In this document: positions 11,845 through 54,076 of the stretch, in pieces
Numbering within the stretch: the first letter of the stretch is position 1
Layout of the letters: every line of letters begins with the position of its first letter
Source of the DNA: Gordonia jinghuaiqii
GTDB lineage: Bacteria; Actinomycetota; Actinomycetes; Mycobacteriales; Mycobacteriaceae
DNA: 64,000 nucleotides
NCBI RefSeq assembly: GCF_014041935.1
Contig: NZ_CP059491.1
Span: forward strand, 744,001-808,000
Reading direction: 5' to 3'
Position numbers and translations under genes: made by a program
Notes under the pieces: generated by a model
The model's input: the letters and a program-made list of their open reading frames with translations, nothing else
The model's database searches: none
What the model was told of the DNA's origin: nothing

Positions 11845-11880
11845 ACAACGCCCCCGCATCACGCGGGGGCGTTGTTTCGT
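11845..11880 (+). terminator. terminator after hbhA copy 1
   Basis: A perfect 13-bp stem (ACAACGCCCCCGC at 11845-11857, GCGGGGGCGTTGT at 11863-11875) with a 5-nt loop and a T-containing tail, 18 nt after the stop. Confidence 0.85.
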
Positions 11881-11898
11881 CTTCCTTCGCGCGGGATG

Positions 11899-11955
11899 GC
11901 TTCCTTCCCGCTTATTGGGTCCAATTAGCGGGAAGGAAGCGACCCGGCGGGAACG
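11899..11955 (+). repeat. 57-bp inverted repeat, left copy (contains a 42-bp palindrome)
   Basis: Bases 11899-11940 fold on themselves with 20-bp arms (19 of 20 pair) around a 2-nt centre; GACCCGGCGGGAACG (11941-11955) follows. The whole 57 bp is present in inverted orientation at 12970-13026 with 52 of 57 identities. The two copies bracket the broken DUF559-like gene. Confidence 0.85.
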
Positions 11956-11979
11956 TGGCGGGGTCAAAAGGTGGCAGGG

Positions 11980-12918
11980 TCAAGCAGCCAGCTCCAGTTT
12001 CACCAGCCAGGGCCGCAGGAGTTCGACGAGCCCACCGCTCTCGAGTAGAGGCCAGGTCCAGCGCACGACGACCGCACCCAGCGCGCGGAGCTCGTCCTCG
12101 CGCAACTTCTCCTGGATCACCGCATCCGCGACGGTCTGTCCGGGCGCTCTGAGACGTCCGTACTTGACCATCCCGTCGAACTCGCCGATGAGCAACTCGT
12201 CCCAATCGAAATCCGCTCGATAACTACCTGTGCGGCAGTGGAAATGATGCTGGAGTCGTGGTGTCGGCAGGCCGGCTTCGATCATCTGTGCACGGCTCCA
12301 CGATTCGCCGACGCTCTCCGACGCACCGTCGGCGAGCGCCAGTGCGCGTCGTGCGACCCGGATGCCCTTCCGGCGACGCGACGCCAGGATCCTGTCGATG
12401 ACGGCCCGATCGGAGCCCGCTCGCAGGGCCTGATCCATCGCGGTGAGTGCCTGCGCGAAGTCTCCGGTGGTTGCCACATCGACGGCCGTCCGTTCGAGAC
12501 TTGTCACGCTGATCCCGTCGACCTCGACGATCTCATCGTCGTCGACCGGCGCGGCGTGCACGTGCCGCTATGTCAGGACCGCCCCGCCGGAGTGCTTGCC
12601 GTTGGTGACGTGGACGCGATCGATCTCGGGGTTCAGCAAGGGGACGCCCAGCACGGTTGCCGCGGAGGCGTGACTCAACGGGAGAGCTCGTCCTGTCGAG
12701 TACTCAGAGGTCACGACGGCGATCGCCGTCAGCCGGTGGAGTTTCTGCGCTCCCTCGTGGCCGCCGAAGTCGGTGCAGTTCTCGACCGCGACTCCCGGCA
12801 CAAGCCTGATGAGGTCGCCGTTCTTGACCGCGGCGGCGAGTTGATTGTCGGAGAACGCGGCCGCGAGGGCGACGCCGCGACGGATGAGACCGAACCGGTC
12901 CACGGGATAACTGGTCAT
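11980..12918 (-). pseudogene. broken AbiEi-like/DUF559 protein gene, split by an in-frame TAG
   Basis: Two consecutive reading-frame pieces are in the same frame. Codons from ATG 12918 to 12571 give 116 aa resembling the N-terminal winged-helix half of AbiEi/DUF559 proteins (DRFGLIRRGVALAA, LPLSHASAATVLGVPL). A TAG at 12568-12570 stops it, and the frame then continues through RHVHAAPVDDDEIVEVDG to 11980. The downstream half has SLERTAVDVA and a vsr/DUF559-like nuclease-fold end (YRADFDWDELLIGEFDG, EKLREDELRALGAVVVRW). Removing the stop gives about 312 aa, the usual family length. So this looks like one gene with a recent nonsense change; a sequencing error or read-through cannot be excluded. 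It sits exactly between the 57-bp inverted repeats. Confidence 0.75.
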
Positions 12919-12969
12919 CTCTGTTCGACGCAACGGAGGGCAGATCGGCTCCATGCGCCATTCGCTTTT

Positions 12970-13026
12970 CGTTCCCGCCGGGTCGCTTCCCTCCCGCTGA
13001 TTGGCTCCAATAAGCGGGAGGGAAGC
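12970..13026 (-). repeat. 57-bp inverted repeat, right copy (contains a 42-bp palindrome)
   Basis: The reverse-complement partner of 11899-11955, 5 mismatches in 57. Internal arms GCTTCCCTCCCGC.../...GCGGGAGGGAAGC (12985-13026) fold with 19 of 20 pairs. The outer flank (13027-13039) continues the palindrome to about 68 bp in total (12972-13039). Confidence 0.85.
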
Positions 13027-13044
13027 CACCCGGCGGGAAGGAGG

Positions 13045-53967: not shown

Positions 53968-53989
53968 GGCCGGCCCGGAAGCGCTCACG

Positions 53990-54034
53990 TATTCCGTTCC
54001 CGCTCACCAGAGTTCGGTGAGCGGGAACGGAATG
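53990..54034 (+). terminator. terminator after purD (18-bp palindrome)
   Basis: ATTCCGTTCCCGCTCACC (53991-54008) pairs perfectly with 54016-54033 around a 7-nt loop. It contains the TTCCCGCT core that also occurs in the palindromes at 11899 and 12985. There is no T-run. Lies between two convergent genes. Confidence 0.75.
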
Positions 54035-54076
54035 GGTGAGCGGGAAGATCCGCGAGTGGAACTCTCGGACGGCGTA

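Follow-up and report, generated by a model that had tools for sequence, protein, structure and literature searches.

A broken AbiEi/Vsr-like nuclease gene between palindromic ends in Gordonia jinghuaiqii: a probable decayed copy of a small mobile element

Introduction

A single broken gene in the genome of Gordonia jinghuaiqii (NCBI RefSeq assembly GCF_014041935.1, contig NZ_CP059491.1) lies between two long palindromes in inverted orientation. The question raised by this locus is whether gene and palindromes belong together as one small mobile element or are neighbors by chance. The window, that is the whole stretch of DNA analyzed, has a length of 64,000 nucleotides and corresponds to positions 744001-808000 of a single-contig genome of 5,184,113 bases. 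The segment 11884-13041 of the window is probably a decayed copy of a small mobile element with relatives throughout the class. It resembles the partnership of repetitive extragenic palindromic (REP) elements with their RAYT transposases but has another enzyme, and its palindromic ends would be the recognition sites of the protein encoded between them. Such a mobile system is the best explanation for the joint occurrence of a cognate nuclease-type gene, matching ends of fixed architecture, dispersed ends, flips of the gene, a chimeric-looking solo palindrome and, in some genomes, concerted change.

Results and Discussion

The bracketed gene and its protein

The gene occupies positions 11980-12954 on the reverse strand and consists of 324 codons and a stop, the start codon being placed from homologs. 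A single in-frame TAG (12568-12570) divides it into open reading frame (ORF) pieces at 11980-12561 and 12568-13029, both in one frame, and the product is 70% identical to the protein of locus L089 with the one TAG inside. The space of 1014 bases between the palindromes is nearly filled by this gene, and no second gene, hence no AbiEii toxin gene, was found in the interval; the sequence-only observation of one broken gene is confirmed. In genome G005, too, the gene at this locus is fragmented (L081:2153-2962), and an in-frame stop is present in the matched stretch of two further homologs (L119 and L127).

Intact homologs consist of an AbiEi-type winged-helix part fused to a Vsr/EDxHD homing-endonuclease-like domain. 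The AbiEi fold (as in PDB entry 6y8q) covers residues 1-196, and the catalytic domain is closest to that of the EDxHD homing endonuclease I-Bth0305I (PDB entry 3r3p). The PADLOC AbiEi model matches 55 of 55 aligned proteins, and the nuclease-type residues are invariant in alignments of 24 and 55 sequences. The protein has both the catalytic domain fold and the conserved acidic residues by which EDxHD enzymes are recognized. No DDE transposase was found in the window element, where the nuclease-type gene stands alone between the ends, and the gene product, an AbiEi winged helix with a Vsr/EDxHD-like nuclease, is not a tyrosine (HUH) transposase. Named homologs among the 120 matches listed are mostly filed as hypothetical protein, AbiEi-family antitoxin, AbiEi transcriptional regulator or DUF559 protein. 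The gene is intact in most aligned relatives, and purifying selection was found in 19 of the 20 pairs tested. It had been regarded as a passenger of the repeats; in view of these observations it looks more like their cognate enzyme gene.

The palindromic units of the window

The repeat had been described as a 57-bp unit recurring in inverted form. Segment 11899-11955 and the reverse complement of 12970-13026 indeed share 52 of 57 positions, the differences being at unit positions 7, 21, 22, 28 and 36. However, the length was underestimated: the arms extend over 11883-11955 and 12970-13042 (65 of 73 positions identical), and a palindrome of about 72 bp, with the 57-mer as its core, stands once on each side of the gene. 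The left unit (11884-11955, 72 bp, dyad at 11919.5) is located downstream of the stop codon of the gene and has 29 of 36 positions paired. The right unit (12970-13041, 72 bp, dyad at 13005.5) is located upstream of the start codon with 32 of 36 positions paired. The word TCCCGC occurs twice in an arm of the window unit, the two occurrences being 19 bp apart.

The exchanges T/C at position 7 and A/G at position 36 form a pair, as had been described, but hairpin maintenance need not be their cause. Two Watson-Crick types were found at 5 of the 36 pairs among seven copies of the same genome, which agrees with compensatory change. Template-switch correction of imperfect palindromes could yield the same pattern. 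An Rfam scan of the region gave six matches, five to microRNA families and one to a small RNA, all under the gathering scores; they are taken as chance similarity to a long hairpin, and an Rfam family identity was rejected. A scan of the genome contigs with a 21-base core as exact pattern gave no match. Just ahead of the left palindrome, at 11848-11876, there is an ordinary terminator-like GC hairpin following the neighboring gene, and comparable hairpins adjoin several other elements.

Bracketing and common architecture of the ends

The bracketing was assessed at the best 80 of 528 homolog loci from named genomes, belonging to Gordonia, Williamsia, Jongsikchunia, Rhodococcoides, Antrihabitans and Nakamurella. 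The left and right 300-bp flanks of each gene were compared with a threshold match score of at least 20, and locus L120 was dropped for its short flank. The two flanks match in 61 of 79 loci, as against 0.8% of 6162 cross-locus pairs, the top-scoring of which are largely between orthologous loci. The proposal of a small element with a single gene between matching ends is supported by this result. A stricter test for palindromes (span of at least 40, within 250 bp of the gene) found them on both sides in 32 of 80 loci and on at least one side in 60. Within 250 bp there are 42 palindromes upstream and 51 downstream of the gene, whereas all 22 bins over 250-3000 bp together contain 9. Judging from these sequences, the bracketing of this gene family is no accident.

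The flanking palindromes have a common architecture. For those with an even dyad (n=109), pairing is 0.56-0.94 out to 34 bp, 0.41 at 35 bp and 0.23-0.36 from 36 bp on; for those with an odd dyad (n=20) the fall-off is slightly earlier, with 0.25 at 34 bp. The palindromes thus end about 35 bp from the dyad. Each arm contains a word and its direct repeat at a distance of exactly 19 bp, identity being 0.64 at shift 19 and 0.23-0.33 at the other shifts between 10 and 32. Of 173 arm repeats detected, 157 are at shift 19, as against none of 37 in shuffled arms. With four words per palindrome, partly direct and partly inverted, the protein may bind as a dimer of dimers. The upstream palindrome is located a median of 55 bp before the matched gene start, a distance uncertain by one base at most. 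On the 3' side of the gene at locus L112, the flanking palindrome apparently has three nested words per arm instead of two.

The words vary between loci, yet they are common to both ends of one locus: arm identity is 0.86 within 46 loci and 0.38 across loci. The similarity of the ends also tracks that of the proteins (Spearman coefficient 0.235, reached in 0 of 300 permutations, same-locus groups omitted). Judged by sequence, the ends are cognate to the gene between them, and the solo ends described below are dispersed in the manner of a REP-like family or of one of miniature inverted-repeat transposable elements (MITEs).

Solo palindromes

Five solo copies of the window unit are present in the 5.18-Mb genome, at about 723990, 1051466, 1991698, 4737635 and 4761534. 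Their best E-values are 8e-19 to 1.5e-28 and the next matches begin at E = 0.35, which excludes chance recurrence of the unit. The suggestion of a REP-like family is thus also correct, one and the same unit being an end of the element and a repeat dispersed at five unrelated sites; flanking of the gene by chance is disfavored by the comparison of flanks given above. A paralogous element at 1777965-1779102 has at least six solos of its own. For 14 solos of this genome, in three families, the neighboring genes are tandem in 8 cases, convergent in 5 and divergent in 1, as called by a simple program based on codon usage.

By alignment score, a solo palindrome tends to be more like the other palindromes of its own genome. 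For 35 solos of the window family in 13 genomes, the mean score within genomes is 42.9 and between genomes 31.2, a difference reached in 0 of 2000 permutations; orthologous pairs, element-flanking units and the poorly palindromic solos of G005 were excluded. The clearest case is the solo L047, with scores of 52-56 against solos of its own genome and 31-39 against orthologs in four species. For the flanks of L047 the order is reversed, with 15-18 against own-genome solos and 99-147 against orthologs. L056 is less clear, with 40-52 for its own genome and 31-45 for orthologs. A larger set gave within-genome medians of 56 for the genome of the window and 43 for G008, and single pairs gave 49 in G020 and 46 in G047.

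States of the block at orthologous places

The window locus (locus A) is situated between a gene that we take to be HBHA-like and an XRE/cupin gene. It was fetched from 30 genomes, of which 8 have the gene and 22 have none within the fetched stretch. In G015 the block is inverted, and its protein is 94% identical to that of G038. In G021 exactly one palindrome is present at the site and the rest of the block is gone. Spacers were inspected in 7 of the 22 gene-free genomes: one contains a solo (G021), one a different nested palindrome (G027) and five are without the unit. The block is thus present, flipped, reduced to one palindrome or absent at corresponding places. The sequence-only reading would have been given up if the unit occurred at many unrelated sites and no genome lacked the block. 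Unrelated sites do exist, modestly, as the five solos, but genomes without the block exist too: it is reduced to one palindrome in G021, and the gene is missing from the fetched stretch in 22 of 30 genomes.

The left half of the G021 solo has no differences in 33 positions to the left copies of G055 and G015, compared with 7 and 4 to their right copies. The right half is nearest to the right copies of G055 and G015 (2 and 1 differences as against 4 and 4), and its comparison with G038 agrees (2 as against 7). The solo looks chimeric, as would be expected of a product of recombination between the two ends. In the spacer following the HBHA-like gene (L180 and L182), the nested palindrome of G027 is built on another word, and G001 has only the outer hairpin, which could reflect gain or loss of the inner part.

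At locus B, beside a gene presumed to be fadB-like, the gene is present in 11 of 30 genomes and flipped in three of these. Among the other 19 genomes, G055 and G038 have a solo, and a decayed solo may be read from a six-genome alignment in G015, G021 and G056. A third site has a solo in G047 and the full element in G031. When orthologous loci are grouped, 7 of the 17 groups include both orientations.

The duplicates L090 and L237 were removed before a tree of the proteins, with 103 rows, was calculated. Locus labels change 18 times on this tree, where the minimum is 16 and shuffled labels give 50.5; within the genus the gene is therefore mostly inherited in place. However, the locus-B elements do not form one clade (approximately unbiased (AU) test, p 0.00025, 43 rows). 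Movement of the G008 element between loci A and B was indicated by the end word and by a Shimodaira-Hasegawa-like approximate likelihood ratio (SH-aLRT) of 92 in a quick tree; the careful tree does not resolve it, and such movement is not claimed. G034, G025 and G003 lack the solo found at 723990 in the genome of the window.

Relatives outside the genus

At E <= 1e-10, 188 of the 296 genomes sampled from the class have a homolog, as do 84 of the 114 genera represented; the ends were checked in the best homologs only. After removal of eight truncated loci (L326, L336, L338, L340, L346, L348, L349 and L350), 18 loci outside the genus have full flanks, and the flanks match in 17 of them, from 10 genera. 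The best inverted match of the ends is 56-106 bp in 14 loci and 18-43 bp in the other four. The sequence TGATCACGTTCA is found on both ends with up to three mismatches in 11 of the 18 loci, six of them without mismatch, a count that has no chance control.

The ends are multi-copy in six of the eight genomes searched, the two strands of a palindrome being counted twice. The G117 end has 41 matches in G117, 57 in G099, 31 in G133 and 33 in G148, and the G312 end has 59 in G312 and 22 in G214. The G312 end gave no match in G160 and G256, to both of which it is foreign, and this says little about their own ends. Dispersed miniature palindromic elements with TGATCACGTT ends were observed in G312 and G117 (L404-L411 and L394-L402). 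Close pairs selected from G312 are 82 bp long in 8 of 8 cases; of nine pairs selected from G117, one is 82 bp, seven are 164-206 bp and one was misdelimited by the scan. No target duplication was seen at these miniature-element pairs in a comparison without control.

Comparison with known systems

REP elements with RAYT, including REPtrons and TIRtrons, are described in PMC3733652, PMC3116915 and PMC3686654. Several features are similar here: dispersed palindromes mostly between tandem or convergent genes, a cognate gene flanked by repeats (matching in 61 of 79 loci, with words shared by both ends in 46 loci), several families per genome and a gene that is mostly vertically inherited. RAYT is a tyrosine transposase, while the enzyme here is a winged-helix protein with a Vsr/EDxHD-like nuclease. 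The units here are 72 bp long with words 19 bp apart. The word Actinobacteria is absent from the main text of PMC3733652.

MITEs move with autonomous partners. The short copies with the inverted ends of the element, dispersed in G117 and G312, are similar to MITEs, and inverted-repeat ends (palindromic in the genus, 56-106 bp in 14 of 18 loci elsewhere) are also a feature of insertion sequences. However, the element here contains no DDE transposase and no target duplication was seen. A defining feature of the RAYT and of the DDE family was looked for in each case and was absent, which places the element outside both. Compared with the EDxHD homing endonuclease I-Bth0305I (PDB entry 3r3p), the protein is fused to an AbiEi-type winged-helix part, and its gene has a copy of the proposed site on either side and is not part of an intron. 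The AbiEi domain is shared with the AbiEi antitoxin (PDB entry 6y8q), but here there is a nuclease domain, with repeats on both sides and no toxin partner inside the element. The mobile GC clusters and double-hairpin elements of fungal mitochondria are palindromes thought to be moved by endonucleases in an organelle setting; we know of no cognate bracketed gene of this type among them.

Proposed mechanism and alternative explanations

In the proposed mechanism, a dimer or tetramer of the protein would bind the four words of one palindrome and would nick or cut the DNA there. Repair from another copy could then convert one site to another, or insert, flip or delete the gene. Two precedents, both from other proteins, support the idea that the protein recognizes the palindrome. 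AbiEi of Streptococcus agalactiae is reported to bind two inverted repeats and thereby to repress its own promoter (PMC3985639), and the I-Bth0305I family acts as a dimer on a target of nearly 60 bp (PMC3943268). Binding, cutting, conversion, insertion and movement of the element are inferred.

The alternative deserving most weight, although we consider it unlikely, is that the palindromes are operators through which the AbiEi-type protein acts as repressor of its own gene and of a small regulon, the solos being its other binding sites. The S. agalactiae precedent (PMC3985639) speaks for it, together with the position of one palindrome just upstream of the gene (median 55 bp) and the likeness among the solos of a genome, which could be that of binding sites for a single regulator. 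However, a similar palindrome follows the gene, the orientation of genes around the own-genome solos (8 tandem, 5 convergent, 1 divergent) is not promoter-like, and the nuclease-type residues are invariant in both alignments (24 and 55 sequences). Nor would one expect operators to show flips, multi-copy miniature ends or a solo like that of G021. That the gene belongs to an AbiE-type toxin-antitoxin or defense system with the palindromes as regulatory dressing is very improbable: the PADLOC match in 55 of 55 proteins and the AbiEi fold of residues 1-196 agree with it, but the gene leaves very little of the 1014 bases between the window palindromes free and the nuclease domain is no part of AbiEi.

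A homing endonuclease proper, with solos as vacant targets and the gene spreading only by copying itself into them, is suggested by the resemblance of the catalytic domain to I-Bth0305I, whose family dimerizes on nearly 60 bp (PMC3943268). The full and solo states at shared loci agree with copying into sites, short of showing it, and the locus-B elements are not one clade (AU p 0.00025). This explanation is also doubtful. The insert doubles the site rather than disrupting it, new solos and miniature families require more than homing into existing sites, and with the locus A gene in related species and the chimeric-looking solo, G021 resembles a loss and not a vacant site. The most improbable of the alternatives is an inert REP family flanking the gene by chance, for which the five unrelated sites could be named. 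Recombination between repeats can flip or delete an intervening block, so flips and loss would follow. It leaves the bracketing of this gene family unexplained, together with the matching flanks in 61 of 79 loci, the cognate words, the fixed architecture and the agreement of the two flanks at 17 of the 18 full-flank loci from other genera (controls 15 of 270).

Several observations weigh against a mobile REP/RAYT-like element. Target duplications at the ends, which the sequence-only reading had recommended to look for, were found in none of 46 loci (mean longest shared word 3.72, mismatched controls 3.91). No clean single-step insertion was found, the 723990 spacer being unalignable in G034, G025 and G003, and movement between loci is rare. 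The flank test failed in 18 of 79 loci, no palindrome was detected on at least one side in 48 of 80, and the 15 of 270 cross-genus control pairs above the flank threshold are read by us as a shared end motif. The Foldseek match of the nuclease domain is weak (E = 0.37). Flips, solos and deletions could be products of ordinary recombination between repeats; concerted change could reflect co-evolution of binding sites without copying. Concerted change is not general and is present in some genomes: within-genome medians are 27.5-29 in G034, G056 and G015 and 12.5 in G005, as against 28 between species for non-orthologous pairs. The four poorly palindromic solos of G005 stood outside the permutation test, and the query used to find solos was taken from the genome of the window, which favors that genome. 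The left half of the G021 solo is equidistant (6 and 6) from both G038 copies. In a half-by-half comparison of the G015 flip with G055, a flip is favored at one of two inner halves with a tie at the other, and the outer halves of G038 misfit. A swap of inner palindrome halves in G015 gave this mixed result and is not claimed.

It is important to note that no description of a gene family with such flanking palindromes was recognized in the open-licence literature searched. The element points to an undescribed kind of small mobile DNA assembled from known domains. More tentatively, and with somewhat less than even confidence, we suggest that it represents an unrecognized mobile element of the whole actinobacterial class. 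Its only enzyme, the winged-helix/Vsr-EDxHD-like protein, would read paired words in the palindromic or inverted-repeat ends, move or convert these ends without target duplication, flip the gene in place and feed families of miniature palindromes. If so, a common gene filed as antitoxin or unknown would encode the enzyme of a mobile system. This would explain a set of palindromic and MITE-like repeats of actinobacteria, and an unrelated enzyme would be added to the REP/RAYT type of partnership. The joint change of a nuclease and its DNA site becomes testable, each element having its own word and its own solos.

Palindromes of a second family

The window also contains a solo palindrome of a second family with the word CGCTCAC (53981-54042, no strand assigned). 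On its two strands it is 87% and 84% identical over 62 bases to the right palindrome of the paralogous element 4823311-4824430, which has solos of its own, this one included. At L369:2709-4119, two palindromes of the CGCTCAC family stand 1.35 kb apart around two ORFs that have no similarity to the nuclease proteins; they are possibly a chance pair or an element minus its gene.
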